Below, piece after piece: positions 1 to 52,430 of a DNA stretch of 52,503 nucleotides. The position numbers were made by a program, and so were the translations under genes. The stretch is from IMG/VR virus record IMGVR_UViG_3300027859_000025, positions 1 through 52,503 of that record; one strand, given 5' to 3'. Origin of the DNA: a virus. The notes under the pieces were generated by a model. That model saw only the letters and a list, made by a program, of their open reading frames with translations, made no database searches and was not told the origin of the DNA. The stretch's first letter is position 1, and each line of letters begins with the position of its first letter.

Positions 1-106
1 CTTCTTGATCTAACCCAGGTGTTTGCTGAGCGTACATGCGTAGTACATAGTGTACAAAAATGCAGTCGTTTTCTGTTAGTTTAAGTGTTTTCATATTATT
101 TTGCAT
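1..106 (-). CDS. Hypothetical protein, 3' end outside window
   Basis: Reads leftward off the window edge; 35 codons are visible. The start at 106 sits in the context AACTATGCA, which recurs at other genes of this block. An in-frame ATG at 94 is the alternative. It overlaps the end of the next upstream gene by 11 bases, as is usual in this compact operon. The visible part is too short to assign a function. Confidence 0.55.
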   Translation of the reverse strand, partial: MQNNMKTLKLTENDCIFVHYVLRMYAQQTPGLDQE

Positions 107-533
107 AGTTTTTAAGGTAATACTTTAGCATAAAGTTTAATCTTGTTATTGGTGAATATATAAGAGCTCTAGCTCTAATCATACCTTTTGATGTATACAA
201 CTCACCATTGTCTCTCTGCCATACGCATCTATAATTCTGCTCGTATGTAGGATTTAGCTGATATGCTCTGTCTCCACCGTTTTGCTTACGTACATAACCT
301 GATTTGAAACAAGCTAGCCTTAGTCTTGGTAAGTCTTTCCACCAAGTACTACCTTTTTTTTCTTCAAACCACTTAAGTCTTTGTTTAGTATATGCAGGTA
401 CAGGAAACTCAAATTCACGAGTACCATTTTTAGCCTGTTTCTGTGTTGTTACTTCTCTGATTCCGTAGTCGATAAGCAGACGCTTTACGAACTGTTCTTC
501 GAGCATAAACTGCTCTTTTTGCCAATTTGTCAT
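96..533 (-). CDS. Hypothetical protein, 145 aa
   Basis: I do not recognise this protein. It is basic and rich in Tyr, Arg and Trp, with no signal peptide or membrane segment. The middle (about residues 35-100) has many aromatic and basic residues, compatible with nucleic-acid binding, but no named motif is visible. Its start overlaps the stop of the 83-aa gene upstream as ATGA, so the two are probably translationally coupled. It lies in the presumed early block. Confidence 0.7.
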   Translation of the reverse strand: MTNWQKEQFMLEEQFVKRLLIDYGIREVTTQKQAKNGTREFEFPVPAYTKQRLKWFEEKKGSTWWKDLPRLRLACFKSGYVRKQNGGDRAYQLNPTYEQNYRCVWQRDNGELYTSKGMIRARALIYSPITRLNFMLKYYLKNYAK

Positions 534-781
534 AGGGTTTTTATTAATTTTAGTTGTTCTACTGTAAATTTCTTTGTATCATCTCGCCACATACGGTTGT
601 GAGTGAACTTTCTAGCCTTCGGAAAGGTAGATTTCTGTCTAACTCGTACTCGATTGTACTCGACATTTGTAAGTCCACTGCATAACCCGTCATGTGAGTG
701 CCTGCGCCTATGCTCGCTTGCACGTAATTTTTTCTGTTGTATAGAGTAATTGCATAGCTCTTTCATAGTCATTACGCCCAT
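530..781 (-). CDS. Hypothetical basic protein, 83 aa
   Basis: Strongly basic: an RRRHSH stretch near residues 25-30 and many later Arg and Lys residues. This suggests binding to nucleic acid, but no domain is recognised. Met4 and Met6 are alternative starts; Met1 at 781 overlaps the stop of the upstream gene by 10 bases. It is linked to the downstream gene by an ATGA overlap. Confidence 0.65.
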   Translation of the reverse strand: MGVMTMKELCNYSIQQKKLRASEHRRRHSHDGLCSGLTNVEYNRVRVRQKSTFPKARKFTHNRMWRDDTKKFTVEQLKLIKTL

Positions 782-975
782 GGATTGTCTGATTTAGGTA
801 CGTAAGTTAAACCTTTATAGTTGAACCACTCTGTGATACCTTCTTTATCTTCATCTTCATTGTAGATGAAAGCAAATTTAGCGGGTAAGTTGCCGACAGT
901 GTAGCCTTTGTAGTCTTGACCGCCAAATCTTATAAATGAATGGCCGTCTTTTTTATAGAATTTTATTTGTTGCAT
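772..975 (-). CDS. Hypothetical protein, 67 aa
   Basis: The ATG at 975 is chosen over an upstream in-frame TTG at 999, because that TTG lies inside the conserved second box of the promoter-like element. The chosen start has the recurrent AACTATGCA context. The protein is small, acidic in the middle (EDEDKEG) and aromatic. Function unknown. Confidence 0.7.
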   Translation of the reverse strand: MQQIKFYKKDGHSFIRFGGQDYKGYTVGNLPAKFAFIYNEDEDKEGITEWFNYKGLTYVPKSDNPWA

Positions 976-989
976 AGTTTTGTTTATTA

Positions 990-1022
990 TATTATCCAAT
1001 AGTTATTGTATTTTGTTTGTAA
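990..1022 (-). promoter_or_regulatory. Bipartite promoter-like element, copy 1
   Basis: Read on the minus strand: box TTACAAACAAAATACA, 7 variable bases, then box TTGGATAATA, followed by AT-rich DNA. The ATG of the 67-aa gene is 14 bases beyond the second box. Four copies with identical boxes and the same 7-base spacing occur in this block, all facing leftward. The variable spacer here gives the short inverted repeat CAATA/TATTG. It begins directly after the stop of the upstream 79-aa gene. Promoter is the favoured reading; a repeated RNA-processing or protein-binding site is possible. Confidence 0.75.
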
Positions 1023-1262
1023 CTAGAGACCTTCTTCATCATCATAATAACCTTCTAAGATCTCTTCCACGTCTTGTGATGTGAAATAACCTTCGCCATA
1101 CTGATTAATGTCTTCAGCTCTTTGCTTGATCTCATTGTATTTAGCCATTTTCCCTGCTTCGAATGATGATGCAGCGATCTCTTGCGCTATATTATTACTT
1201 ATTGTGTAGGAAGTAGCGCATGCACCTACTATTATTATGGTTTTAATTATATTTTTCTTCAT
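1023..1262 (-). CDS. Small membrane-anchored or lipoprotein-like protein, 79 aa
   Basis: The N-terminus is MKKN followed by a hydrophobic run to about residue 14, then Cys15 in the context VGAC, which resembles a lipobox. The rest is hydrophilic and ends in an acidic tail. It may be a lipoprotein or a single-pass membrane protein; no family is recognised. Its ATG overlaps the stop of the 48-aa gene upstream as ATGA. Confidence 0.65.
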   Translation of the reverse strand: MKKNIIKTIIIVGACATSYTISNNIAQEIAASSFEAGKMAKYNEIKQRAEDINQYGEGYFTSQDVEEILEGYYDDEEGL

Positions 1263-1405
1263 ATTCTTTGAAAACTAATGTTATTACACTTAAAAGCGAT
1301 CCTGTATTCTTTTACAAGATTTAGAGCTTCCACTCTATTTTCTGCTTCATCTATTATTTCTGGTTCATAGGAGCCATTACTCCAATATATTATATTATAT
1401 CTCAT
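1259..1405 (-). CDS. Hypothetical protein, 48 aa
   Basis: A short ORF supported by context. It overlaps the 46-aa gene upstream by 11 bases and the 79-aa gene downstream by ATGA, leaving no gaps in the operon. The sequence is mixed hydrophilic with a single Cys near residue 40. No function can be given. Confidence 0.6.
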   Translation of the reverse strand: MRYNIIYWSNGSYEPEIIDEAENRVEALNLVKEYRIAFKCNNISFQRI

Positions 1406-1535
1406 CTGAATTTTTTACTATATTATCATTGATTACCTGCAAGACTTCATCTCTAGTGATTTCACCTTGTAGTTGTTTTAGTATAAGAGAAGTCATATCT
1501 ATCTCTTTATTGTTAGTTATTTGTATAAATTGCAT
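1395..1535 (-). CDS. Hypothetical protein, 46 aa
   Basis: The start at 1535 has the same TATGCA context as neighbouring genes. The product is likely mostly helical, with an acidic C-terminal half. Its 3' end overlaps the next gene. Unknown function. Confidence 0.6.
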   Translation of the reverse strand: MQFIQITNNKEIDMTSLILKQLQGEITRDEVLQVINDNIVKNSDEI

Positions 1536-1551
1536 AGTATTATATTTTTAA

Positions 1552-1776
1552 TTAGTCACCTGTATAGTTATTAAATGTTGATTTAGATTTGTAGTATTGT
1601 CTACACCCTTCATCATGAAGTTGTTGTAACTCTTTGTAGTAATCAGAGTTATTTAGCCTGTCATCTCTAAATTCAGTGACATTTTGTAAGTCACCATATT
1701 GGGTGATATTGTCTATAGTACACTTGTAGATATCTTTGTCTGGAAAGTGTGGATTGAAGTGTTTAATTATTCGCAT
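1552..1776 (-). CDS. Hypothetical protein, 74 aa
   Basis: A hydrophilic protein with two Cys residues and many Asp, Asn and Tyr. No domain is recognised. It begins 17 bases downstream (on the minus strand) of the tRNA-like element, so it is probably on the same transcript from promoter copy 2. Confidence 0.65.
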   Translation of the reverse strand: MRIIKHFNPHFPDKDIYKCTIDNITQYGDLQNVTEFRDDRLNNSDYYKELQQLHDEGCRQYYKSKSTFNNYTGD

Positions 1777-1792
1777 AGTTATTTAGTATTAG

Positions 1793-1907
1793 TGGAGTGT
1801 AGAAGAATCGAACTTCTCTCACACACGTGCGCGATTTACCTACTAACGCTATAGAGTTTTTCATCTATATTAAGTACGCCACGATTTACTGCCGAGCCAT
1901 TCACTCC
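1793..1907 (-). ncRNA. tRNA-like structured RNA, 115 nt, identity unresolved
   Basis: The minus strand shows a canonical T arm: 5-bp stem AGAAG/CTTCT closing loop TTCGATT. It is followed by ACACTCC and a discriminator A. The 5' end GGAGTGA pairs with this for 6 of 7 positions. The interior is not a normal tRNA: total length is 115 nt, no clean D arm is found, and the central hairpin TATAGA/TCTATA has an 8-nt loop containing TGAA. A CGTG/CACG pairing may enclose that hairpin. No CCA is encoded. It could be a degenerate or insertion-bearing tRNA or a tRNA mimic. It starts about 25 bases after promoter copy 2. Confidence 0.4.
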
Positions 1908-1931
1908 GAATGTTATTTATTTAGTTTATTA

Positions 1932-1964
1932 TATTATCCAACTATAGTTGTATTTTGTTTGTAA
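1932..1964 (-). promoter_or_regulatory. Bipartite promoter-like element, copy 2
   Basis: The same two boxes as the other copies (TTACAAACAAAATACA and TTGGATAATA), 7 bases apart. Here the spacer and box edges form a perfect 12-bp palindrome, CAACTATAGTTG. The first thing downstream is the tRNA-like RNA rather than a start codon. Confidence 0.75.
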
Positions 1965-2145
1965 CTACCATCTTGTTACATCAGTGGACCCACCAATTTC
2001 TATTGGTAATGACTTGATTTTAAGTATAATAGTGTGTATGAATTTTCTCATATAAGTATTATTTATAAGTGTATAATTGTTTATTAGTTTAATTTATAGT
2101 TATAGTGCTGCACTGATTATCTCAGTGAGTAATAAAGAAGTAGTA
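1965..2145. other. Gene-free stretch with a small hairpin
   Basis: No ORF I would accept. At 2111-2127 there is an inverted repeat CACTGA-TTATC-TCAGTG, just after the stop of the 75-aa gene. It could act as a weak terminator or a 3'-end stabiliser, but no U-run follows it on the minus strand. The rest is AT-rich with no recognisable signal. Confidence 0.4.
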
Positions 2146-2373
2146 TTAAACTACCTCTTTATCTCTTAGTATAACTGGTACACTAGTTGAAGAAGTGTAT
2201 GACTTATACTTTTCAAAACAATTCATAGAAGTTAATTTATCTTTCATGATTTCATATACTTTATCATGATTGTAAGTGAATGACTTACCATTTTTGAAAG
2301 TTACTTCAATGATTTGATTTTTACCTATTAAAGATTTTCTGATAACAAATCTTTTTGATTTTAAATTTTGCAT
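2146..2373 (-). CDS. Hypothetical basic protein, 75 aa
   Basis: The start at 2373 is in the context TACTATGCA. The protein is Lys-rich with a strand-turn-strand pattern near residues 20-35. No family is recognised. It is preceded by promoter-like copy 3. Confidence 0.65.
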   Translation of the reverse strand: MQNLKSKRFVIRKSLIGKNQIIEVTFKNGKSFTYNHDKVYEIMKDKLTSMNCFEKYKSYTSSTSVPVILRDKEVV

Positions 2374-2422
2374 AGTATTATTTATTTATTAAGTTATTAT
2401 TATTATTATTTAGTTACATTAT

Positions 2423-2455
2423 TATTATCCAATTTGTAATGTATTTTGTTTGTAA
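2423..2455 (-). promoter_or_regulatory. Bipartite promoter-like element, copy 3
   Basis: Identical boxes and 7-base spacing. The spacer TTACAAA does not make a convincing hairpin, which argues against an RNA structure being the conserved feature. About 50 AT-rich bases with TTA repeats separate it from the start codon of the 75-aa gene. Confidence 0.75.
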
Positions 2456-2460
2456 TTTAA

Positions 2461-2628
2461 TTATATTATTTTATAAGTTATATTATTTTTTGTAAGTAAT
2501 TTATTTATATTAATGTTTGAAGGATTATGTAATATAAATAATTTGTTATTTATAAATTGTAAAGAAATATAATTGTTTGTTAGTATTTTAGTAGTTAATT
2601 GTATTTGATATTTATTTATAAGTAACAT
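2461..2628 (-). CDS. Hypothetical protein, 55 aa
   Basis: The ATG at 2628, in the context AAACTATG, is preferred. Upstream in-frame near-starts fall inside promoter copy 4. The composition is extreme (Ile, Asn, Leu, Lys), reflecting very AT-rich DNA. A real gene is supported mainly by the promoter and start context. Confidence 0.5.
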   Translation of the reverse strand: MLLINKYQIQLTTKILTNNYISLQFINNKLFILHNPSNININKLLTKNNITYKII

Positions 2629-2642
2629 AGTTTGTTTTATAT

Positions 2643-2675
2643 TATTATCCAAAACATTCTGTATTTTGTTTGTAA
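2643..2675 (-). promoter_or_regulatory. Bipartite promoter-like element, copy 4
   Basis: The outermost copy, at the head of the leftward block. Same boxes, same spacing; spacer GAATGTT. The second box lies 14 bases before the ATG of the 55-aa gene, the same distance as in copy 1. Confidence 0.75.
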
Positions 2676-2929
2676 AAAAAGTCAAAATAATTTCAATGAA
2701 AAATTCAAATATATAACAAAAAAAACTGTAAAAAACAGCCGGGGCTGGTAAATTTCAATCAATTTTACAATTCTGTAGGAAAAAAATCAGGAAAATACAA
2801 CACTAACTCTCGATATACGCTATGGGGCCTAGTTTTATATAGTGACATTAGCCTTATAAGGTATATAAGTAAGGGGCTTATGTCCTACTTTGTAAGTTTT
2901 CGCCTTTATCTGTAAGTATATATAGATAT
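2676..2929. other. Divergent intergenic region
   Basis: Separates the leftward early-type genes from the rightward late-type genes, so it should hold a rightward promoter; none is certain. Visible elements are a small inverted repeat, CAGC-CGGG-GCTG, near 2738, a 10-bp palindrome CCTTATAAGG at 2852-2861, and a TACTTTG resembling a shortened Bacteroidetes -7 element near 2884. No ORF is convincing. Confidence 0.5.
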
Positions 2930-4047: not shown

Positions 4048-5232
4048 ATGAATTTCGGCTACGTAAAAGACACAGCTGGTATAACCAAGCCAATAAATCT
4101 AGATGACATAAAAATTATAAATGTCACCGCAGATAGTATAATAATAAGATATAATTTAACTGGAACATCAAATATTTTTGATGAATTAGCTTTCTTTATA
4201 TCTTTTAATAACACAGGCTCAATATCAACAACTCAAATAGAATCTCAATTCTATAGTTGGTTACAAAATGCATTAATTTCCACTTCTCCATTAAAAACTA
4301 GTTTAAACTCAGCGATGCCTCAACTAGAGATTGTTACAGCAGGTTTAATTAATGCGGCTGGTTATAGAGATGGTACTTTTGGTGCTGCTGTAGATGAAGC
4401 TGCGGCTTGCGCATCCACTCCAGCAACAAACTGTATAGTTGAATCCAAAGTTGGAACTCCAGCGGTTGGTACTTTAGTTTTGTCTAAACCTTCAGCCACG
4501 GATTTAGATCCTATTGCAGATGGCACATATGCATTGAGCGTAGGTGGTTCTAAATATTTTATTAGTCTTAAAGGATCTAGATTAACAAGCATCGTTGTTT
4601 GTCCTTTAGTACTAGATTTTGTGTTTGATCCTAATCAAAACGCTTCTGGTAGTGCTTCTGCTGCAAATTATGTCACTTTATCTACCACCAACAATGCCAC
4701 TTTCACTAATAGTTATTATGGAGCATTTGCTATGTCGCCTGCTTTTGGTAGTGGTAGCTTTGGAAGTTGCTCTTTTTTACAAGGATCTAATGATAGAACT
4801 TGGCCATGTGGATATATAATAAATGGCTTTTTAGACGCAGCTAAAGGATTAGGTCAATTACCTGCTTTCGGTGTTAAACTAGCAGATCCTGCTGTATCTA
4901 GTTACAATAATGCCGAGTTATATGTATCTGATGACTATTATGTCACTGGCAATAAAGATTTAGCTACATGGGTGGCTTTTAATGAAGATTATTGGCTTCA
5001 AGGGTTTAGTTATTTTGGAACTGGAGCTAATCCTCCAGCGCCTCCAGCTCTAAATACGGTTTATAGCATGCTAATCAACAACTCAATTGCAACCGACCCA
5101 AGTACATTAGCAGCAAGAGGTAGAATATTTTTACCACCCGCAACTTCATTTAGTGGTGGCGCAACTTTTGCAACTACTACTTACTTGAATTTAAGCACAA
5201 CTGGAATACTAGATCAAGCTTCAAGCTGTTAA
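4048..5232 (+). CDS. Putative virion structural protein, 394 aa
   Basis: Not recognised at family level. It is rich in Ser, Ala, Asn and aromatic residues, apparently mostly beta, with several Cys residues (for example near residues 120-128). Its place between a fibre-like gene and other small structural-type genes suggests a fibre or decoration protein; this is inference. No signal peptide. Confidence 0.5.
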   Translation: MNFGYVKDTAGITKPINLDDIKIINVTADSIIIRYNLTGTSNIFDELAFFISFNNTGSISTTQIESQFYSWLQNALISTSPLKTSLNSAMPQLEIVTAGLINAAGYRDGTFGAAVDEAAACASTPATNCIVESKVGTPAVGTLVLSKPSATDLDPIADGTYALSVGGSKYFISLKGSRLTSIVVCPLVLDFVFDPNQNASGSASAANYVTLSTTNNATFTNSYYGAFAMSPAFGSGSFGSCSFLQGSNDRTWPCGYIINGFLDAAKGLGQLPAFGVKLADPAVSSYNNAELYVSDDYYVTGNKDLATWVAFNEDYWLQGFSYFGTGANPPAPPALNTVYSMLINNSIATDPSTLAARGRIFLPPATSFSGGATFATTTYLNLSTTGILDQASSC

Positions 5233-6071: not shown

Positions 6072-7628
6072 ATGTCAGACGCAATAGTCAAAAACCTAAA
6101 CTTTGGTGATGATGCCAGGGTTAATGTATTTAAAGGAATTGAAAAACTAACGCAAGCTGTTAGTTCCACGCTTGGAGCTAGCGGCAAATGCGTTATGTTA
6201 GAGGATCACACTGGAAGACCAATCATAACTAAAGATGGTGTAACAGTTGCAGATTCTATAATACTGCGAGACCCAGTGGAAAACATGGGTGCTACGCTTT
6301 TAAAAGAAGCAGCTCGTAAAACAGTGCAAGAAGCCGGCGACGGAACCACTACGGCTACAGTACTTGCTCATGCGATACTTGAAGAAGCTTACAAAGTAGC
6401 TAACAAAACAAACTCAAGAGAGTTAAAAGACGGTATTAATTCAGCTATTGAAAAAGTGGTTAAGTATTTAAAACTACTTACAGTAGATGTTAAAGGTAGT
6501 ATGATAGATCAAATAGCTACTATATCTACAAACAATGATCCTGCGCTTGGAAAAATTATTGCAGATGCTTTTAGATCTGTAGATAACACAGGTGTAGTTA
6601 TGATGGAAACGGCTTCAGATGGTAAAACACATGTAGAAGTTGTTGATGGTGTTCAATACGACAAAGGTCTTAAGAACTCACACTTTGTAACTAACCAAGC
6701 AACAAAGACTGCTGAACTAGAAAATCCACTAGTGCTTTTACTAGAATCACCAGTTGATACAATACGACAGATTCAATCTGTGCTAGAGTACGTAATAAAA
6801 AACAACAAACCTTTGCTTATTATAGGCGATTTAGAACAAGGTGTTTTATCCGCTCTAGCTATGAATAAAATGAAAGGCAACATTAAAGTGAATGTTATTG
6901 ATGCTCCAACGTTTGGAATAAACAAGCAACAAATGCTTCAGGACCTTTCATTACTTACTGGTGCTACTATTATAAATGAAGACTTAGGTGATGACATGGA
7001 AATGATACAGCCTGAGCATTTAGGTAGTTGTGTTAAGAGTGTTACATCACACGAAGATACAATACTACAAGTAGAAGAATCACCAAAAGAAGTTATAGAC
7101 GTTATAAATGAAATTAAGTCTAAGCTTTTGAAAGAAAAAAATCCTAATAAGCTTATAAAGCTTGAAAAAAGATTAGCCATGCTGTCTGCTAAAATAGCAA
7201 TAGTTAAAGTAGGTGCTAATTCAGAAATAGAATTAAAAGAAAAAACAGATAGGGTAGAAGATGCTATCTGTGCTACTAAAGCTGCTATCAAAGAAGGGAT
7301 TGTTCCTGGTGGTGGTATTGCTCTATTAAACGCTGCAACAAATATAACAGCTAAGTCACTAGGTGAAGCGGTTTTATTAGAAGCTATTAAAGCGCCTTTT
7401 GAAACTATACTTGAAAACGCAGGTGTTCAGGATGTTGAAACACCTACTAGAAAAGGACAAGGCTACAATGTGGTTACAGGAAAAATGGTAAATATGATTA
7501 AGTCGGGTATTATAGATCCACTACTAGTCACCAAGAGCGCTCTTCAAAATGCAGCTTCTGTAGCAACAACAATATTATCTACTGATTGTGTAATTAATAA
7601 TTTAAGAATTGATGAAAGCAATAGGTAG
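6072..7628 (+). CDS. groEL: Phage-encoded chaperonin GroEL (Hsp60)
   Basis: A full-length group I chaperonin of 518 aa (bacterial homologues about 545). Visible landmarks are the ATP-binding loop GDGTTT at 89-94, with Asp90 matching E. coli Asp87, the equatorial [12 protein letters not shown] segment with catalytic Asp397 (E. coli Asp398), the [11 protein letters not shown] loop after it, and the C-terminal [11 protein letters not shown] segment. The flexible GGM tail is missing and the end (about 15 residues) is short and charged. The role would be ATP-driven folding of phage or host proteins. The gene overlaps groES by 17 bases, in the reverse of the usual bacterial order. Confidence 0.95.
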
Positions 7629-13577: not shown

Positions 13578-13804
13578 TGGATTCAGTTATAAGAAAAATC
13601 AGTATAGGTTCTGATTACAAAAACGACGCTATGCACTACTCTGTAGGGCAGCAAGTTTATGGAGGTCACGAAATAGCTTATATTTTATTTGATGAAACTG
13701 ATGGATCTTATAATATTCATATAAAGAAAAACAACGAGGTATTGCCGTGGAAGAAGTTTAATTCTAATATGGCTGTATCTGTTGAGTATGATTTAGAATA
13801 TTAA
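13577..13804 (+). CDS. Hypothetical protein, 75 aa
   Basis: A compact, beta-rich sequence with alternating hydrophobic residues (VYGGHEIAYILFDETDGSYNIHI). Function unknown. It overlaps its neighbours by one base on each side, so the three genes form a coupled set leading to the GroES-like gene. Confidence 0.6.
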   Translation: MDSVIRKISIGSDYKNDAMHYSVGQQVYGGHEIAYILFDETDGSYNIHIKKNNEVLPWKKFNSNMAVSVEYDLEY

Positions 13805-14409
13805 TGAAAAGCTTATATGATTTTATTGTCAAACCTGTTGGTGATAAATATAAAAACACAATTAAAATAGCGGGTAAAGACGTTGTTATCAATACTAAAA
13901 TTGAAAACTGGAAGTTTGTAAACCGCTTAGCTGAAGTCATTGAAACGCCATTAGCCTTTAAATCAGGCATTAAAAAAGGTGATACAGTAGTTATACACCA
14001 GAACGTATTTAGAACCTTTTATGACATGAAAGGTAAAAAAAAGAAAAGCAGATCTTATTTTGAAAATGATTTGTATTTTTGTAGCCTTGACCAGGTTTAT
14101 TTATATAAAAATAAAAACGGTTGGAACACTGTTGGTGACAGATGTTTTATAACACCTATAAAAAGTAATGATTCTCTAACGCTTGATAAAGAGCGTAAGC
14201 TTGTTGGTATATTAAAATATGGCAATAAGTCCTTAGAAGCACTAGAAATAAACCCAGGAGACCTAGTTGGCTATACGCCTAATGGTGAATGGGAATTTTT
14301 AGTTGAAGGAAAAAGACTTTACTGTATGAAATCTAATGATATTGTAATTAAGTATGAACACCAAGGAAACGAAGAAGAATATAATCCAAGCTGGGCAGCG
14401 AGCAGTTGA
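13804..14409 (+). CDS. GroES-like fold protein, probable tandem duplication, 201 aa
   Basis: Both halves show a GroES-like pattern by eye. The first (about 1-105) has FIVKPVGDKYKN, then GIKKGDTVVIHQNVFR and SLDQVYLYK. The second (about 106-190) has RCFITPIKSND, KLVGILKYGN, INPGDLVGYTPNGEWEF and LYCMKSNDIVIKY, matching the GDxV...M.xxDI end of GroES. The GGI/VL mobile loop is not evident in either half. It could be a co-chaperonin variant, as T4 gp31 is for T4, or a virion protein using the fold. The gene lies two genes before the large terminase. Confidence 0.5.
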   Translation: MKSLYDFIVKPVGDKYKNTIKIAGKDVVINTKIENWKFVNRLAEVIETPLAFKSGIKKGDTVVIHQNVFRTFYDMKGKKKKSRSYFENDLYFCSLDQVYLYKNKNGWNTVGDRCFITPIKSNDSLTLDKERKLVGILKYGNKSLEALEINPGDLVGYTPNGEWEFLVEGKRLYCMKSNDIVIKYEHQGNEEEYNPSWAASS

Positions 14410-33554: not shown

Positions 33555-36500
33555 ATGACAATAGAAGAAAAAACTATAGAACTTCAATCGGTTAGTCCAC
33601 CATTGACAACGCCTGAGATTATTGCTGAGCTTGGAAAATGGCAAGCCGCTCAATCTATTCAAGCTCTTCAAGAAGATAACTCCCCTACTAACCCGGGTAG
33701 GTCTGCTACTTTTAAGGAAGAAAAAGAAGAAGTAATTGAAACTCCAGAAGTTGATGATGAAGAGATTATTAATGAAGAAGAAGAGGGAAATCAAGAAGTT
33801 GTTGCGGAGGAACAGGATGCGACTGTAACAACTACACCGGACAATGCATCCGAGGAAGAAGATACGGAATCTCCATCGGAAGATGGTTCATTGGAATCAC
33901 AAGAACCTGAAGAAGAAGAGAGTTACGAAGTAATTCGTAAAAGATTTTTTGATACAGTTCAGAAACAAAAAAACGAAACTGGCAGAAGAAACGCTATAGA
34001 TACTGCTGTAAAAGACGCATACAAAGATGTAAACTCTGATGTTGAAATAGTAAATTCAGGTGAAGAAGTTGTAGATGGTGATTTTACTTACAAATATGTG
34101 TCAGATGTAGACAAAGAAGGTAATTTAGATTTACAAGTTTTTTACAAAGGCAAAGATGATGAAGAGTTTATCAACGCTTCAGAACGCGCTAAAAACAATC
34201 CTAAAAATGTAGCTTTACAGAATCAAGAAGCAGCTATACAATCTCAACTAGGGTTTTTGCCAGCTGAAGTAAAAGAGCAAGCTAATGCTATTTTAAACTA
34301 TACTCCTCCACCTAAGCCACAAGATTTTGATCCAAATAGAGAAGGTACGCAATCTTTCGATGATATGCTTATTTATAATTATCAAGAACAAGATATTGTA
34401 AATCAAATGTCAGAGGCTGATAGGTTAGTTTATGATTCTCAAAAAAAATTAGAGGCTGCTAAAAATAATTTTAATGAAATATTAGAATCCGATCCAAAAA
34501 TAAAAGCTTGGTACGAAGATTTAAAGAAAAAAATGGGTGATTATGATACCCAAAAAGCTGAAATACAAAAAAAAATAGATGCTCTTCCCGTGGGAGAAAC
34601 TGGCAAATTAGCTGAGCTTGAGCAAGAGCTAGAAAATTTAGATGAAAAATTTAAAGATATAAATATATTAAAAGGAGAATCTATGCGAGTTGCTCTAGAC
34701 GAAGAGCTTAATGCTATGATGCCTGATATTAAAGCTAAAGCATATGAATCAACTATAATAAAACCTACCGAAGAACCATCTATGTTTAATATAGTTGGTA
34801 AAGTTTTTAGAGGAGCTGGGCAAAGAAAATTAAGTAAAGGTCAAGCTGCTATTTCAACTGTAATGGGAGATATTTTAGACCCTGTAGATACAGATCTTTT
34901 ACAACAACAAGAATTTTACGAGCAAGCTAAGAAAGAATATGCTAAGAAAAACAAAGTAGACTTAAACACTGTCACAGACGCAGATGTTAGAAGTATTGTA
35001 GAGGATAAATACGTACAATTTTATACAGAACAAGAAACTAATAGATTATATAGAAACTACTCTGAAAGCCTAATAGAGGATATAGAAAAAGATTTTTTTG
35101 CAAAATATGTTGTTAGTAATATACCTGGAGTTGGTAAAACTTTAGCTAGCTTTACACCTACTTTTGCTAAAATGTTTGGTTTTAAAAATATAGAAGATAT
35201 TTTTGGAGACACAACTCAAGAAAAAAAAGAACAATTAATTAAAGCCGCTGACAATCTAGATCTAAACCAAAAAATAGTAATAGATAAATTAGCTCAACAA
35301 ACAGTTGCAGCAGAAACGTTTAAAAATCTAGGTCGATATAATACTACTTATTTAACTGAAGAAGATGCCGCAAAAGCAAGAGAAGAAATAAGATTGTCAA
35401 ATTTAACAATAAGATCTAACATAGATATTATTGAAAAAGGATTTGATGAAATGGTAGAAAGAGTTGATAGTGTACAAAAATCAGAATTGTTTGACCAGTA
35501 TTATGCTAAGAATTATGGTTTTGTAACTGAACTTGGTGGTAGAGCCGCGGCGATGGGTCTAGATTTGTTTGTAAATGGTTTAGCAGAATACTCTGAAAGA
35601 ATGGGTATTAACGTAGCAAGTCTTGGAGCCACTGGTATAGCTCTAGAAGGACTATACAATAAATTAACTGGAGAAGATTTAAGTAAAAAACTAACAGATA
35701 AATTTACCGGCGGTGTTGATTCTTTAATAGAGTATTTAAATAATGAAATGGCGCCACCTACTACTCTTAGTGACATTGAATCTGGAATGGACGTAGCTAG
35801 ATGGGCTGCGGGTAGCTTAGGTCAACAACTACCTATTTACGGCGCGATATACTTATCAGGCGGTACATATGCTCCTATACTTATTGGTGCCGCGGTGGCA
35901 GGTAATAAGTTTAGAGAAATGCAAAAAGAAATAGATCTTGGAACTGCTGATTATAATTGGTGGCAAATGTATGGAACTGCTAATTTAACAGGAATTTCCG
36001 CTGCAGCTACAGAATACGTTACTCAAGGTATGCTAAATAGGTTAAAATTTTCTTATCAAAATATACCTGGTTTTAAAGTAAGTTTTAACGAAACAATGAA
36101 AGGCTTTTTATCTTCTACAGGTAGATGGGCACGAGACATGGGTGAAGAAATACCTAGTGAAATGTTAGATGAACTAATAGGTAACATTGGTGATAAATAC
36201 ATACTTGGTAAAAAAGATGTAAATCTTTTTGATAATCTAGGCGAGACAGCTTTGAGTACGCTTTGGACTGCTGGTGTTGCGATAAGAGCTCCATTAATTG
36301 GTCATCAAATTTTAGCTCCTTTTAGAAGCAAACAGTCATATCAGACAATAGGGGAAGGAGTTGCTAGAATAAGCGAGCTTAACGAGCAATTAGCTACCAA
36401 TAAAGATCTGAGTGTTGAGGCTGTTCAAAAAATAAAAGATGAGATTAGCGCTATAACCGTTAATAACATGAAAGCTTTAAAAATAGATATTAATAGACTA

Positions 36501-39500
36501 GATGATCTTACTGCTGATGAGAAAAAGATTTTATTAAACAACAAGGCTAAAGAGTATGAGATAATAAGATCAATACAAGAAATTAATAACGATAATACTA
36601 TTGATCAAAAAACTAAACAAACTTTAATAAGTTTGAAAAATCAAGAGTTACAAAGCATATCTACTAATTCTACTCAAATACTAGCTCCATATATAATAGC
36701 AGAAAATAAAGCCAAAAACGAGCCTATTATAGATGAAGCAATTAAAAACGTAGAGCAAGTAACTAAAAAAGTTTTAGGTGAAGGTATTAATGTTATAGAT
36801 GACATGAATAACCTGCCAGAAGGTATACCTAAATTTGTTGATGCTTATGTAGATCCTAAAACAAATCAAATATACATAAACAAAGAGTGGGCGGCTTCAG
36901 TCGGGGCGGTCACGGCGGCCGAGCACGAGTTGTTGCACAAGATACAAAAATCAATGTTTGACTCTACTGATCCAAAAGTTAGAGCAAAAGCTCTTGAACT
37001 TGTAGAAGATTTTAAAAAGACTTTAAGTAAAAAAGAAAGAAATTTAGTACAACAAAGAATTGATGCAAACTATCGTTATGAAATGAACGATGATGGTAGT
37101 TTTGTGTTAGACGATCAAGGTAATAAAATAGAAAAAGACCCGGCTGCATATGCAGAAGAATATTTTAATGTTTTCTCTGATCTTGTGGGTAAAAATCAAA
37201 TAGGTTTTACTGATAACTTAGGTGAAAACCTGCTTAGATTTTTAAACAAATTAAAAGAATCTGTTTTTGGACCAGCTGGTTTTACAAACTTAGAATATCA
37301 AAATGGTAGAGACGCGTACAACTTTATAAAAGATTACAACAAAAGTATAAAAGAAGGTAAAGTATCTGAAAGAGCAGAGGCTTTAATTAGAAAAGGTGCT
37401 TTAACAACTAGTGATAGAACATCGTCGTCTATAACTGTAAATCCAGCAGAACAAGCAGCCGGTTATCAAGTAACAAAACAAGCATCAGATCTTGCCGCTG
37501 ATGTAAAATCTGGTGAAAAAACTAATGAACAACTAATTGTAGACGCTGCTCCAAAGAACGAGGCAGACCCACAGGTTAGAATAGCATCACAGGATGCATT
37601 AGTAGAAGCTAATTGGCCCGTTATAAGAAAAGCATTAAATATTGATCCTACTGGCAAGATTCCACAACCTTTTATAAAACTAGCTGTTCAAGAAATGTTT
37701 AGAGATACATTTCCGGGCAGAGGTGTTGAAGCTAAGTTTTTTGATAAGTTTAATCCTAAGTTAAAAAACAAGGTTACTACGTTTCTTGAAGGTCAGTTAA
37801 ACATGAGAACTGGAGATATATTAGAAAGAGCTAAGGCTTTAGAATCAGAAAAACAAGATTTAGGAATTGAAAAAGCAGGTGGGGTAGTAGACACTAGTAC
37901 AACTAAGACTGTAACAACTAAACGTTCTAGAACGCCTAAAACACCAACTGAAACAGTTAAATATTCTGATACAATTATAGAAAAAGCAGGTGTTAAAGAC
38001 AAAGTAGAGCTTGAAGCTAAAATAACAGAAGAAACTAGAAAAGGATTTGAAGACGTAGAAGTAGAAAGGTTTGGTCAAACAAAAGACGTTCCGCGAGGCG
38101 TAGCCGATATATATGGTGATATGCTTGGTTTGAATCCAGAAACAATTACTGATAAAACTAGAACATATCAAAACTACGATGAAGCTGGTTTAAACGCTGC
38201 TCAAAGATTTTTATTAGCTAACGCGGCTAGTGATTATGCAAGGCTACCTAAAACTAAAGACGAGACTACTACACGTGGCAGAGGTACTTTCATACCTAAA
38301 AATATGAAAGATGCTCTGTATACTGATGGTAAACTTACAGGTACACTAAAAGACTATATGGATCTTCTTAGAAGCAAGCCTACAGGTAAGTTATATAGAG
38401 ATAGTAAATATGCTCAACTAATACGAGGTTTATTAAACACTCATATTAGAAATCGTATGTTTGAAACTTTAGTGCCTACAACACCTCAGCGATTACGTGG
38501 TGGTGCTAAGTTTAGTATTACCCAAGCGCAAAGACCTGGTTTATATAAGGTAGGTAGCGAAGATGGTCTTGTAGTAATGAGAGACTCTGCTATAAAGTTC
38601 GCTAAAGATAATAATATAAAAGTTGAGTTTGAAAATCCTGATGGTACATTCACAGAATTAAATGTAAATAACTTTAATGCATCAAATCCTAAAGCTGTAG
38701 AATATTTAAAAAGAAATATAGAAAACGAACTTTGGAAGCACGTTCCACTAGAATCTTTAACTAGAGGAACTATGGTAGATTATAGTTCTAAAGGCAATGC
38801 TATATTTTTTGACTCAAAACAATTTGATAAAATATTAGATAACGCTTATAGTAATAGAAAAAAATGGTTAGCTGAAGGTAATACTCTTTCATACGATCAA
38901 GCAGAGTTAAAACAAAGTATTAAAGTAGCGTTTGGAACTAAATCTCCGTCTTTAGTAACTGGAAATTACGCTAAAGAAAGTGCTAAAAGAAAAGTAGACG
39001 CAAATGCTAAAGGTGTTAAAATTATATTGCAAGGCGGAGCAAATGCTATAAAAGCAGACCCAGCTAATTATTTATCTTTACTAGCTATTTACGGAACACA
39101 ATCATCTTCTTCTTCTCATTTAGTTAGAAACATGGCGGTTGACATGGGTCTTAGTGAAGAATATCTGAAAGCTAAACGATCAAAAGATGGCAATACGGTA
39201 AAAGAGCATGTTTATCCAGCTAATGAAATGGCTTCTTTTATGTATCTAGCTCAGCTTTATGATGATGTAGATGCCATAATGCCTATTGTTAAAAAAGCTT
39301 ATTTTCAACTAGGTATAACAGAAATACAAGATAATAAGTTAATAGACACAGATGGCACGTATGGTGAAAAATATAATTACAAATCAACACAAACACAGCT
39401 TTTTTATGATGGTTTAAAAGAATATTTTAAAACTGGTGATGAAAGTAAAATAAAAAATGCATTAATTAGATATTTTAATCCTCAAGTAAATGAAAATTCT

Positions 39501-42500
39501 AGTGGAGACAATATACAAGGTATTAATAGTAATACTTTAGAGATAATGGGTAAAACCGTAGCTGAAACCTATACGCGTCAATTGCCTAAATCAGATCAAA
39601 ACTCTAATAATATATATGTTCAAAACGAACTTACATACCAAGTGATGACTGGTGAAATAACTCAAGCAGAAGCAGTTAAAAGACTTGATGCACAGATCAG
39701 CTCTGGTAATGCTAAAGTTAAACCTAGTATTACAAATAACAATATGCAACCCAATAGCTTGAAGTTTAGTGATAAAGCCGCTGGTAATAGCGTACTTGTT
39801 ACTGATGAGCTAAACACTCTTGACAAAGCTTTAGCTGAAGGTAGAAAAATAGATAAACCTGTTAAGAAAATAAGAGTATTTGACTTTGATGATACATTAG
39901 CTAGATCAAACAGTAAGGTTATTGTTATAAATCCTTTATCTAGCATTGATAGCGATATGCTTGATATTGTAGCTAGAAGAAAATTTAAAAAAGAATTTGA
40001 AAATCTACCAAGCTTTAAACAAAACTTCAACAGCTTAAACGAGCAACAAAAACTAGAAGTTTTAAAAGAAGTACCAGGTGGGACTAAAGAAATAAACGCA
40101 ACTCAATTTGCTGAACAAGCTGCCACACTTGAAGAGCAAGGCGCTACGTTTGATTTTAGTCAATTTGAGCAAGTTATTGATGGCAAGAAAGGACCGTTAT
40201 TTGATGTTGCTAAAAAAATAGCAGACGCTAGAGGAACAGAAGATTTATTTATATTAACAGCTAGACCACAAAGTGCAGCTGGTCCTATAAAAGCTTTTAT
40301 GAAAGCTTTAGGTATTAATATACCTTTAGGTAACATAACAGGCTTAGCCGATGGTACCGCTGCTGCAAAAGGTAGATGGATCGCTGGTAAAGCAGCTGAA
40401 GGTTATAATGACTTTTATTTTGCAGATGATGCTAGTAAAAATGTTAAAGCAGTTAAAGACGTATTAGATCAAATAGATGTTAAGTCTAGAGTGCAGCAAG
40501 CCAAGTTTAGTAAGTCAGCTACATTTAATACTATAGTAAATCAAATGATTGAAGACTCTTCAGGTATTGAATCATTCAAAACTTTTTCTGCTGCTAAAGC
40601 TAAAACAATAGGTAAAGATAAAGGGAGATTTGATTGGTTAACAATGGCTTCATCAGCTGAAGATTTTAAAGGTTTATTATATAGCTTATTAGGTGATGGT
40701 AAAAAAGGTGAAGCTCAATATGAGTTTTTGAAAACAAACCTTATGGATCCGTATAACAGAGCGGAAGATTCTATAACTCAAGCTAAAATAGCAGCTGCTA
40801 ACGACTTTATGGCATTGAAAGAGCAGTTTCCAGGTTTACCTACAACATTAGAAACAGAAACAGGTGTTGGGAAGTTTACATATCAGCACGCGCTTCGTAC
40901 TTATATGTGGACTCAACAAGGTATGTCAATACCTGGGCTTTCAAAAGCTGATGCAAGAAAACTTAATAAGTTTATAACTGATGACGCTAAGTTACAAAGT
41001 TTTGCAGATCAATTAATGTCAATACAAAAAGGTAAACCATATCCTAAACCTGGTAAAGATTGGTTAGGTGGTAATCTAACTACAGATATTATTGGTGGTA
41101 TAAACAAAGTAAACAGAGCAGAGTACCAGCAAGAGTGGAGAGAAAATGTAGATATTATATTTTCACCTGAGAACTTAAACAAAATGGAAGCGGCTTATGG
41201 TACCCGCTGGCGAAAAGCTTTAGAAAATAGTTTAGCTCGTATGAAAGCTGGCACAAATAGGCTTGGTTACAACGATCAGACAAGTGCTGTACTTGACTGG
41301 GTTAACAACTCCGTTGGTGCAGTAATGTTCTTAAATACTAAATCTGCGCTACTTCAAACTATATCTGCTGTAAACTTTATAAATTGGGGTGATAATAATA
41401 TTATAGCCGCAGGTAAAGCGTTTGCAAATCAAAAGCAATTCTGGGGAGATTTTATGACTCTTATGAACTCTGATTACTTAGTACAGCGTCGTAATGGTCT
41501 TAAAATAAATGTAAGTGAATCTGAAATAGCAGACGCTGTAAAAGATTCTAAAAACAAAGTTAATGCAGCTATATCGTATTTACTGAGTAAAGGTTTTGTA
41601 CTTACTCGTTATGCAGATAGTTTTGCTATTGCTTCAGGTGGCGCTACGTTCTATAGAAATAGAATGAATAAGTATATTAAAGAAGGTATGAGCAAGGAAT
41701 TAGCTGCAGAAAAAGCTTTTCAAGACTTTAGACGTATCGCGGAAGAAAGCCAACAGTCTAGTTCACCTGATAAAATCAGTATGCAGCAAGCATCAGCCGC
41801 TGGTCGTGTTATACTTAACTGGGCTAATACACCGATGCAATATATTAGAATACAAAAGCGTGACATACAGGACTTAATAGCAGGTCGCGGTGATCCAAAA
41901 GTTAAAATGGCTAGAATAGCTTATTACGGTGTTATTCAAAACTTAATATTTAACGCTATGCAACAAGCTTTATTTGCTATAGGTTTTGGTGACGACGAAG
42001 ATGATGAGGAGAAAAGTGCGGCAAAGAAAAAGCAAGATGAAAAGAGAATAGCTAGAGTTGCAAACGGTATGATTGACTCTCAGTTAAAAGGTTTAGGTAT
42101 TGCAGGTATGGCTATGGTTGCTGTTAAAAATACTTTAATGAAAATATACGAAGAGTCTGGTAAGAAAAGACCTGAGTATGAAGCCGCGGCAATAGAGGCA
42201 TTAAGCTTCTCGCCAGCTATTAGTTCTAAATATAGAAAAATAGTAGGCGGTTTAAAAAGCTTTAGTTGGAACATGAAAGAAATGAAACAAAAAGGTTTTA
42301 GTCTTGATAATCCAGCTTATCTAGCAGGAGCTCAAATTATAACAGCAACTACAAACATACCTATTGATCGTGTTATTAAGAAAGCAAATAATATAAGAGG
42401 CATATTGAGTGAGCAATCACAAAAGTGGCAGAAAGTTCTTTTGTTTGGTGGTTGGAGCACTTGGGACGTTGGCTTGCCTTACTATGGCGGTTGGGATAAA

Positions 42501-42692
42501 CCAGTTGAGCCTACAGAGGCAGAGCGTAAGAAACAAGAGATTGATATAATGAAGCGTGATACTAGCACGGTTGAGCAAACACAGATGTTATTAGATCTAG
42601 GTCTTACTAAAAAACAAATTAAAGCATTGCGCTATGAAGACGCTAGGGTTAAAAAAATAATTGAATTACAAAAAAAGAAAAAAGATGAGTAG
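33555..42692 (+). CDS. Giant internal virion/polyvalent-type protein, 3045 aa
   Basis: The largest gene in the window. The N-terminus (1-140) is acidic and Ser/Thr/Glu-rich. A zinc metallopeptidase motif HELLH is at 1124-1128. A HAD-like domain follows: DFDDT at 2110-2114, then FILTARPQS, and later AAAKGRWIAGKAAEGYNDFYFADDASKN. Between and after these are long helical regions. The C-terminal 500 residues have hydrophobic and Lys/Glu-rich stretches (KMARIAYYGVIQNLIFNAMQQ). It fits a T7 gp16-like or large polyvalent protein delivered with the DNA. Substrates of the two putative enzymes are unknown. Confidence 0.75.
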   Translation: MTIEEKTIELQSVSPPLTTPEIIAELGKWQAAQSIQALQEDNSPTNPGRSATFKEEKEEVIETPEVDDEEIINEEEEGNQEVVAEEQDATVTTTPDNASEEEDTESPSEDGSLESQEPEEEESYEVIRKRFFDTVQKQKNETGRRNAIDTAVKDAYKDVNSDVEIVNSGEEVVDGDFTYKYVSDVDKEGNLDLQVFYKGKDDEEFINASERAKNNPKNVALQNQEAAIQSQLGFLPAEVKEQANAILNYTPPPKPQDFDPNREGTQSFDDMLIYNYQEQDIVNQMSEADRLVYDSQKKLEAAKNNFNEILESDPKIKAWYEDLKKKMGDYDTQKAEIQKKIDALPVGETGKLAELEQELENLDEKFKDINILKGESMRVALDEELNAMMPDIKAKAYESTIIKPTEEPSMFNIVGKVFRGAGQRKLSKGQAAISTVMGDILDPVDTDLLQQQEFYEQAKKEYAKKNKVDLNTVTDADVRSIVEDKYVQFYTEQETNRLYRNYSESLIEDIEKDFFAKYVVSNIPGVGKTLASFTPTFAKMFGFKNIEDIFGDTTQEKKEQLIKAADNLDLNQKIVIDKLAQQTVAAETFKNLGRYNTTYLTEEDAAKAREEIRLSNLTIRSNIDIIEKGFDEMVERVDSVQKSELFDQYYAKNYGFVTELGGRAAAMGLDLFVNGLAEYSERMGINVASLGATGIALEGLYNKLTGEDLSKKLTDKFTGGVDSLIEYLNNEMAPPTTLSDIESGMDVARWAAGSLGQQLPIYGAIYLSGGTYAPILIGAAVAGNKFREMQKEIDLGTADYNWWQMYGTANLTGISAAATEYVTQGMLNRLKFSYQNIPGFKVSFNETMKGFLSSTGRWARDMGEEIPSEMLDELIGNIGDKYILGKKDVNLFDNLGETALSTLWTAGVAIRAPLIGHQILAPFRSKQSYQTIGEGVARISELNEQLATNKDLSVEAVQKIKDEISAITVNNMKALKIDINRLDDLTADEKKILLNNKAKEYEIIRSIQEINNDNTIDQKTKQTLISLKNQELQSISTNSTQILAPYIIAENKAKNEPIIDEAIKNVEQVTKKVLGEGINVIDDMNNLPEGIPKFVDAYVDPKTNQIYINKEWAASVGAVTAAEHELLHKIQKSMFDSTDPKVRAKALELVEDFKKTLSKKERNLVQQRIDANYRYEMNDDGSFVLDDQGNKIEKDPAAYAEEYFNVFSDLVGKNQIGFTDNLGENLLRFLNKLKESVFGPAGFTNLEYQNGRDAYNFIKDYNKSIKEGKVSERAEALIRKGALTTSDRTSSSITVNPAEQAAGYQVTKQASDLAADVKSGEKTNEQLIVDAAPKNEADPQVRIASQDALVEANWPVIRKALNIDPTGKIPQPFIKLAVQEMFRDTFPGRGVEAKFFDKFNPKLKNKVTTFLEGQLNMRTGDILERAKALESEKQDLGIEKAGGVVDTSTTKTVTTKRSRTPKTPTETVKYSDTIIEKAGVKDKVELEAKITEETRKGFEDVEVERFGQTKDVPRGVADIYGDMLGLNPETITDKTRTYQNYDEAGLNAAQRFLLANAASDYARLPKTKDETTTRGRGTFIPKNMKDALYTDGKLTGTLKDYMDLLRSKPTGKLYRDSKYAQLIRGLLNTHIRNRMFETLVPTTPQRLRGGAKFSITQAQRPGLYKVGSEDGLVVMRDSAIKFAKDNNIKVEFENPDGTFTELNVNNFNASNPKAVEYLKRNIENELWKHVPLESLTRGTMVDYSSKGNAIFFDSKQFDKILDNAYSNRKKWLAEGNTLSYDQAELKQSIKVAFGTKSPSLVTGNYAKESAKRKVDANAKGVKIILQGGANAIKADPANYLSLLAIYGTQSSSSSHLVRNMAVDMGLSEEYLKAKRSKDGNTVKEHVYPANEMASFMYLAQLYDDVDAIMPIVKKAYFQLGITEIQDNKLIDTDGTYGEKYNYKSTQTQLFYDGLKEYFKTGDESKIKNALIRYFNPQVNENSSGDNIQGINSNTLEIMGKTVAETYTRQLPKSDQNSNNIYVQNELTYQVMTGEITQAEAVKRLDAQISSGNAKVKPSITNNNMQPNSLKFSDKAAGNSVLVTDELNTLDKALAEGRKIDKPVKKIRVFDFDDTLARSNSKVIVINPLSSIDSDMLDIVARRKFKKEFENLPSFKQNFNSLNEQQKLEVLKEVPGGTKEINATQFAEQAATLEEQGATFDFSQFEQVIDGKKGPLFDVAKKIADARGTEDLFILTARPQSAAGPIKAFMKALGINIPLGNITGLADGTAAAKGRWIAGKAAEGYNDFYFADDASKNVKAVKDVLDQIDVKSRVQQAKFSKSATFNTIVNQMIEDSSGIESFKTFSAAKAKTIGKDKGRFDWLTMASSAEDFKGLLYSLLGDGKKGEAQYEFLKTNLMDPYNRAEDSITQAKIAAANDFMALKEQFPGLPTTLETETGVGKFTYQHALRTYMWTQQGMSIPGLSKADARKLNKFITDDAKLQSFADQLMSIQKGKPYPKPGKDWLGGNLTTDIIGGINKVNRAEYQQEWRENVDIIFSPENLNKMEAAYGTRWRKALENSLARMKAGTNRLGYNDQTSAVLDWVNNSVGAVMFLNTKSALLQTISAVNFINWGDNNIIAAGKAFANQKQFWGDFMTLMNSDYLVQRRNGLKINVSESEIADAVKDSKNKVNAAISYLLSKGFVLTRYADSFAIASGGATFYRNRMNKYIKEGMSKELAAEKAFQDFRRIAEESQQSSSPDKISMQQASAAGRVILNWANTPMQYIRIQKRDIQDLIAGRGDPKVKMARIAYYGVIQNLIFNAMQQALFAIGFGDDEDDEEKSAAKKKQDEKRIARVANGMIDSQLKGLGIAGMAMVAVKNTLMKIYEESGKKRPEYEAAAIEALSFSPAISSKYRKIVGGLKSFSWNMKEMKQKGFSLDNPAYLAGAQIITATTNIPIDRVIKKANNIRGILSEQSQKWQKVLLFGGWSTWDVGLPYYGGWDKPVEPTEAERKKQEIDIMKRDTSTVEQTQMLLDLGLTKKQIKALRYEDARVKKIIELQKKKKDE
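36891..36940 (+). other. GC-rich island over the HELLH motif
   Basis: 34 of 50 bases are G or C (hand count), against 14 of 50 immediately upstream. Codons GCG, GTC, ACG, GCC, CAC and GAG are used where neighbours use AT-ending codons. It encodes the segment leading into HELLH. Recombination, or selection on the DNA itself, could explain it. Confidence 0.7.
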
Positions 42693-46588: not shown

Positions 46589-46634
46589 GGAACAAAGATA
46601 ACTGGGCGTACCATACCCAAAAGTTCCTGTAACC

Positions 46635-51788: not shown

Positions 51789-52430
51789 TTATAATTTATC
51801 GTTATATAAGTGCATGTTGTGCGCGTGGTGGTAATACCAACCAATTTCTAAATTCAGTCTGTCTGCAATCATTTTTTGCAATGATGAGAATTGATACTGA
51901 TCATTACAGAAACCGTACCAGATGTCATTAGAACGCATATAGACAGACATACACAACTGTTTATCTATAATTGTAAACTGAATTGCATAAGTACAAGGCG
52001 TGTCTTTCTTGTATTTATCGTATTCTTTACCGTCATATATACTAATTGCGGCGTGGCGTGTATTAGGATTTGTTTTAAGCTTTGCACAGACGTAATCTAT
52101 TTGAGCTTTACGCTTCCATTGGTAGCCATAGTTACTGTTTACCTCGCGATCACTGTTTGCCATACGTTCCCATATCGGTGGTATCTTACCATATAGCTCA
52201 CCAAGCTTGTCAATGCTAGGATCACCAGACAAATACCATTGCCATTCAGCTTCAGCATATTCTAAACTCCAGTTACGCTGTTTATTTTTAATGTGATTAT
52301 CTTGTGGGTTTACTATATAAAAGCCGCAGTTAAATATAGCCTGCGTACCATCAAACTCTATACCGTTTATAATAACCTCATCAAGCAAAGCTTCATATGC
52401 TTCATCTGCGTTGTGAAATGTGTTTTTCAT
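51789..52430 (-). CDS. ThyA-fold enzyme, probable dCMP hydroxymethylase
   Basis: 213 aa. Similar to the thymidylate synthase superfamily, and closest by eye to T4 gp42: PPIWERMANSDREVNSNYG and RSNDIWYGFCND share long patterns with it. Catalytic Cys146 (TPCTYAIQ) and Glu62 are present. Asp177 replaces the Asn177 of thymidylate synthase, a change that marks dCMP-specific enzymes. T4 has an Arg-Arg phosphate-binding pair where this protein has Arg125-His126. The C-terminus is shorter than T4's. It may make 5-hydroxymethyl-dCMP for modified DNA. The alternative is another dCMP/dUMP-modifying activity. Confidence 0.75.
   Translation of the reverse strand: MKNTFHNADEAYEALLDEVIINGIEFDGTQAIFNCGFYIVNPQDNHIKNKQRNWSLEYAEAEWQWYLSGDPSIDKLGELYGKIPPIWERMANSDREVNSNYGYQWKRKAQIDYVCAKLKTNPNTRHAAISIYDGKEYDKYKKDTPCTYAIQFTIIDKQLCMSVYMRSNDIWYGFCNDQYQFSSLQKMIADRLNLEIGWYYHHAHNMHLYNDKL

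Follow-up and report, generated by a model that had tools for sequence, protein, structure and literature searches.

Organization of the leftward early block

The window, by which we mean the whole stretch of 52,503 bases that was analysed, is an IMG/VR virus record classed as linear and, going by its relatives, is probably a fragment of a genome of ~61-66 kb. Positions 1-2675 (minus strand) are the left end of a leftward early block. In and next to this region lie the following features, with hexamers and start sites (+1) as predicted from the geometry described below:

772-975 (-): 67-aa early gene, placed behind copy 1, ATG at 975
990-1022 (-): candidate promoter element, copy 1; -35 at 1015-1020, -10 at 991-996, predicted +1 A at 984
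1552-1776 (-): 74-aa early gene, downstream of copy 2, start at 1776
1794-1907 (-): tRNA-like sequence, first feature behind copy 2; GGAGUG/CACUCC paired ends, T-arm-like GAAGUUCGAUUCUUC, unusual long middle
1932-1964 (-): candidate promoter element, copy 2; -35 at 1957-1962, -10 at 1933-1938, predicted +1 A at 1926
2146-2373 (-): 75-aa early gene, placed behind copy 3, start at 2373
2423-2455 (-): candidate promoter element, copy 3; -35 at 2448-2453, -10 at 2424-2429, predicted +1 G at 2417
2461-2628 (-): 55-aa ORF (MLLINKYQIQ...), behind copy 4, ATG at 2628
2643-2675 (-): candidate promoter element, copy 4, the most upstream; box 1 at 2660-2675, box 2 at 2643-2652; -35 ACAAAC at 2668-2673, -10 GATAAT at 2644-2649, predicted +1 A at 2637
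2730-2747 (-): terminator-like hairpin CAGCCCCGGCTG-TTTTTT, read by eye, just upstream of copy 4

The 75-aa early gene is kept in eight of nine element-bearing genomes, and the 55-aa ORF also sits behind an element in a relative (L017/L023). The tRNA-like sequence at 1794-1907 gave no ARAGORN or Rfam match and its fold is unremarkable (z -0.8); tRNA-like 3' ends abut elements in several relatives, and the early block of one relative (L005, 4406-4487 and 5917-5989) holds an Rfam tmRNA match of only 82 nt near a tRNA-Gln. The early block of a sister clade (L306, L307, L309) contains three to four paralogs of the 75-aa gene, several of them behind an element of their own, and a MoxR-type ATPase adjoining a VWA-like protein. 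Beyond position 1 of the window, the missing ~9 kb should encode a DNA ligase, the protein P0003, a sigma factor, ERF, an exonuclease and a primase-helicase and, by synteny with genome G010, appears to rejoin the window at thymidylate synthase (51789-52430). Elsewhere in the window we noted a phage-encoded GroEL-type chaperonin (6072-7628; PF00118, E 8e-61), a GroES-like protein (13804-14409) and, just downstream of ribonucleotide reductase, the segment TTTGGGTATGGTACGCCCAGTTATCTTTG (46593-46621, minus strand), whose sequence hardly varies among five genomes; it conforms to TTTG-N-TAnnTTTG and may serve as a host-type promoter or as a terminator.

A repeated bipartite element confined to the left block and shared among marine phages

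The element has the form TTACAAACAAAATACA-N7-TTGGATAATA and is present in four minus-strand copies, with 26 of 26 conserved bases identical and a variable 7-base spacer. An earlier, sequence-only reading of this DNA had described exactly such copies, 7 bases between the boxes and all pointing left, and we confirmed them at the positions listed above. Its assertion that none occurs elsewhere was likewise borne out, as a search of the 52,503-base window with three mismatches allowed revealed no fifth copy, the next-best match scored far below the four copies and 100 dinucleotide shuffles of the window yielded no match. The idea that the left block constitutes a separate regulon is also supported.

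A search of other viral contigs recovered the exact pattern in 15 further stretches and a looser pattern in at least 119, while 14 records carry 1-9 copies each (up to three mismatches), always on one strand, with zero matches in the control. Similarly, nine related genomes hold 50 sites with at most 5 of 26 mismatches, and the reversed control gave none with up to six. In all, over 100 stretches of marine phage contigs contain the element, at constant spacing, on a single strand and immediately ahead of small early genes, and its description as promoter-like and leftward is supported. Its information content is ~45 bits over 40 positions. By terminase, the named relatives are Flavobacterium elemo phages, Cellulophaga phi38:1 and phi18:3 and the uncultured ctfjg026, from which we infer that the phages infect Flavobacteriaceae; the element is absent from all four of these that were examined (ctfjg026, elemo, phi38:1 and phi18:3). 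The motif did not turn up in literature searches.

Sigma70-like geometry and a start-site footprint

Promoters of the sigma70 family have -35 and -10 hexamers that are 16-19 bp apart, an A at -11, a T at -7 and a purine start ~6-7 nt past the -10. With the first T of the element as base 0, ACRRAC (bases 2-7) and GATAAT (bases 26-31) are separated by a rigid 18 bp, and A27 and T31 are invariant by the definition of the sites. In the window's copies this geometry reads -35 ACAAAC, an 18-bp spacer and -10 GATAAT: the -35 region is TTACAAAC with its ACAAAC core at -36 to -31, and GATAAT occupies -12 to -7. When spacings of 8-29 between TTACAAA and GGATAATA were tallied, only 18 occurred (234 instances), a count taken on loci that were preselected with spacing 18, though with several sites per genome. 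An ATG-opened ORF of at least 30 aa is found within 400 nt downstream at 224 of 226 sites, at a median of 25 nt from the box, and no such tendency is seen on the antisense side of the same 226 sites.

Of 408 aligned sites, 99% have a purine at base 38, which lies six nt past GATAAT, and the use of start codons around this base changes abruptly: an ATG at base 36 is present at 137 sites and opens an ORF of at least 40 aa in only 4, whereas an ATG at base 38 is present at 37 sites and opens an ORF in 36. Since an RNA starting at base 38 would leave an ATG two bases earlier off the message, this footprint argues for an RNA start at base 38, and some of the mRNAs are predicted to be leaderless. 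The predicted leaders of copies 1, 2, 3 and 4 are 9, 150, 44 and 9 nt, respectively, and the predicted +1 positions (984, 1926, 2417 and 2637) fall within 4 nt of the starts that had been guessed at 980, 1922, 2413 and 2633. Few messages of Flavobacterium psychrophilum lack a leader (5.5%, PMC9723704), so the frequency of leaderless ones at these elements is a prediction in itself. Base 38 is a G in ~44% of the 408 sites; such elements frequently have an ATG at base 36, which would precede the predicted start and in many cases runs on into TAA (ATGTAAC), and two classes of initial sequence recur, TAATAAAC and ATAATGTAAC.

The primary sigma factor of the host reads TAnnTTTG (PMC9723704, PMC6847099). 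Bacteroidetes promoters of this type resemble the elements in that transcription starts a few nt past the -7/-10 box and in their AT-rich leaders without a Shine-Dalgarno sequence, but they differ in the TAnnTTTG box (PMC9723704, PMC6847099), which is absent from all four window copies, in agreement with the sequence-only reading, and was seen near only 16 of 408 sites (lacking in 392). Nor does the element match any of the promoter classes reported in F. psychrophilum (sigmaA, sigma54, TAnnTTGY and ECF CGT; PMC9723704).

Label permutation revealed that subtype letters at bases 5, 7-9, 12, 14-17, 21, 24 and 25 agree more among the copies of one genome than between genomes, with no such sharing at spacer bases 18-20 and 22. 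Concerted within-genome change of this kind is expected when a reader evolves together with its sites. Six genomes have ..CAGATAATA in place of TTGGATAATA, and TTGATAATA and TCGATAATA types also occur. In the sister clade (G047, G048 and G049) the element is CACGGACTTA, then 15 nt, then GATAATA, and 22 of its 23 sites there have a purine at base 38. The upstream box of this clade, ACGGACTTA, stands in register with ACAAACAAA, and ACRRACWWA is common to both, so that the two boxes have diverged; a modular swap of the upstream box between clades had been considered and was dropped on these grounds.

A sigma70-family gene as candidate reader

Among the readers that the sequence-only reading had put forward (a phage RNA polymerase, a sigma factor or an activator), it is a sigma70-family gene that was found in related genomes. 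A search of 20 element-bearing or related genomes for sigma70 region 2 was positive in 18, above the curated cut-off of PF04542 in 13, and region 4 (PF04545) scored above cut-off in one of four proteins scanned and below it in two. The homologs are ~250 aa long, align between both clades over regions 2, 3 and 4 and match phrog_351 ('RNA polymerase sigma factor') at E 1e-14 to 1e-22, with values of 1.5e-18 to 3.4e-22 among them. Their PDB profile matches are all sigma factors (SigA/RpoD/FliA chains, about 1e-7 to 1e-8, best 1.9e-8), and the 50 structure matches at E <=0.001 obtained with a model of pLDDT 74 are annotated as sigma factors or as initiation complexes of RNA polymerase. The start of the sigma gene overlaps the end of the P0003 gene, followed by ERF, exonuclease and primase-helicase in the leftward block.

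When records of at least 50 kb were picked by the sigma protein alone (n=33), 25 of them carried ACRRAC-N2-A-N15-GATAATA, compared to 0 in the reversed control. Moreover, the recognition residues of region 4 are almost identical between the clades, in keeping with the ACRRAC core that the clades have in common. Against the sigma reading count the 8 of 33 sigma-bearing records from which the strict pattern is missing and the fact that the sigma gene is not in the window fragment; by synteny, the window's own phage would carry it in the missing stretch left of position 1. The element and the sigma gene also travel in one phage lineage, so that shared descent could explain their co-occurrence, and near-perfect copies in a few host chromosomes (see below) likewise speak against it. 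The strict pattern is present in 0 of the four relatives ctfjg026, elemo, phi38:1 and phi18:3, and no convincing sigma homolog was detected in the examined parts of these.

On the basis of the element, its geometry, the start footprint, the location before genes and the co-occurrence with a sigma gene, all of them read from sequence, we consider it likely (probability roughly 0.8) that the early-gene start signals are read by a phage-encoded sigma70-family factor that redirects host RNA polymerase. Each element would be a complete promoter for the multi-subunit RNA polymerase equipped with this factor, which presumably works with the host core enzyme and would draw it, away from the TAnnTTTG promoters of the primary sigma, to the small early or middle genes of the leftward block. 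Each short transcription unit would have a promoter of its own, with RNA starting at a purine 6 nt past the -10 and a leader that is often very short or absent.

The conserved box runs past the -35 hexamer to about -22, beyond the usual reach of sigma region 4, and because the conserved AAATACRA exceeds what region 4 normally reads, a helper is conceivable. It is possible that P0003, an HTH protein, helps to read AAATACRA inside the spacer. P0003 had been the first candidate for the reader itself and was rejected in that role (AlphaFold pLDDT 79, no PDB match better than E 0.76). With regard to the initial supply of the sigma factor, a weak TAnnTTTG lies ahead of the first element in only 3 of 15 genomes, and no consistent host-type promoter was seen ahead of the P0003-sigma pair; the first sigma molecules may arise by read-through, from an unrecognised host promoter or from sigma carried in the virion.

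Phage-encoded sigma factors such as SPO1 gp28/gp34 and T4 gp55 redirect the host core RNA polymerase to phage promoters and are essential there (PMC9429907). The system proposed here on sequence grounds would be alike in this respect and thus of a known kind, while it differs in its Flavobacteriaceae-infecting lineage (as inferred from relatives), in the consensus ACAAAC-N18-GATAAT, for neither of which we found a report, and in a region 2 that is recognisable, with region 4 above the Pfam cut-off in some members. In the sister phage ctfjg026 (MW202828), which has neither the element nor a detected sigma, most early genes are likewise directly preceded by a repeat, the perfect palindrome TGTGTCGTTAACGACACA (16 copies in L166, MW202828 40000-60850, e.g. 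4541-4558). It takes the place of the putative sigma promoters of the window's lineage, but lacks a GATAAT box and is more operator-like.

Alternative readers and copies in host chromosomes

A phage activator might instead occupy the 16-base box near -30 and recruit host RNA polymerase with its own sigma, as T4 MotA does at middle promoters, and we regard this as unlikely. The box is indeed phage-borne and centred near -30, close upstream of a -10-like element, as is the MotA box (PMC2988021), it contains two TACAA-like units 11 bp apart (as read in sequence), and P0003, HTH-containing and encoded directly ahead of and overlapping the sigma gene, is a candidate helper. However, the spacing is rigid here and 12 +/- 1 bp in MotA promoters, the box sequence differs by eye from the published MotA consensus and the -10 GATAATA is not the TAnnTTTG box of the host. 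The second TACAA-like unit is not retained in the sister clade, where the -35 hexamer register is kept, and P0003 has no significant structural match and an HTH helix that differs little from clade to clade. In addition, there is a sigma gene.

Near-perfect copies of the element also exist outside phages. A strict scan of GTDB genomes returned three stretches, all from Flavobacteriaceae assemblies (contigs of 28.8, 195 and 812 kb), and 8 of 397 genomes of the family have a match within three mismatches (9 places), compared to 2 in the reversed control. Genes of a small secreted-protein family start 25 nt downstream of the element in G134 and of its two copies in G052; searches of viral contigs and of Pfam gave no match to this family. 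G053 is arranged likewise, but its gene is frameshifted. Around the copies in G134 and G052, recombinase- and excisionase-like genes were recognised by eye; in G051, the copy is located close to the end of a contig, behind dnaE, trxA and a DUF58-like gene. The label 'phage-specific' given by the sequence-only reading is therefore too strong: phages do carry the element, but it also stands upstream of genes in a few Flavobacteriaceae chromosomes. As a separate observation, L341/L342 (G052) and L343 (G057) contain many secreted-protein genes with a near-identical signal peptide (MKKLLLLLLLVPMVSFGQ...), arranged like cassettes beside recombinase-like genes.

Given these copies, the reader could also be a host protein, either an alternative sigma factor or a regulator of marine Flavobacteriaceae, that is borrowed by the phages. 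Such a borrowed reader could account for the near-perfect elements that precede start codons by 15-25 nt, yet it appears quite improbable, as only one or two copies occur per host genome in 8 of 397 genomes, with no graded series of weaker sites around them and two hits in the reversed control of that set, the F. psychrophilum promoter classes do not match and the phage sigma gene would be left unexplained. The host copies could represent phage DNA that was captured, satellites, a small regulon of the host, or host genes that respond to the phage sigma. A more specific and rather doubtful proposal is that they mark host or satellite genes, several of them in integrase-bearing islands, that are silent until the sigma of an infecting phage activates them, as an infection sensor or a satellite timed by its helper.

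That a single-subunit (T7-like) or giant virion RNA polymerase reads the element and starts at the GG of box 2 is very improbable. T7-type promoters are also long, nearly invariant, confined to one strand and present once per small gene group, with information (here 45 bits) far above what uniqueness in the genome needs; GGATAATA is conserved and could be an initial transcribed sequence, and a 3045-aa virion-region protein exists. By contrast, the start-codon footprint begins at base 38, a sigma-like position, for which reason the GG start was dropped, the scanned proteins include no RNA polymerase family match and the giant protein has HExxH and HAD-like motifs and no D.D.D polymerase motif. 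A PF00940 search of 20 records gave no match, with control genomes also giving nothing. The 3045-aa protein itself (33555-42692; HAD-like motif DFDDT, conserved C-terminal part, no family match) is probably a large polyvalent virion protein. Finally, that the element acts at the RNA level, as part of the leader, or serves in replication or recombination, as its repetition and constant proximity to start codons might suggest, has next to no likelihood in view of the rigid bipartite spacing, the sigma-like geometry, the lack of ATG use before base 38 and copy 2, which precedes the tRNA-like sequence instead of a coding region.

Implications

For an abundant group of uncultured marine phages of flavobacteria, the element makes early genes and their start sites predictable from sequence. 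The probable sigma-promoter pair is unlike host promoters and would be a useful tool in a phylum in which standard promoters do not work. The copies in host chromosomes allow one to ask directly whether a phage sigma is exploited by bacteria or by satellites as a signal of infection, and if the infection-sensor reading were true, they might act as a trigger of defence or belong to a satellite synchronised to its helper phage.
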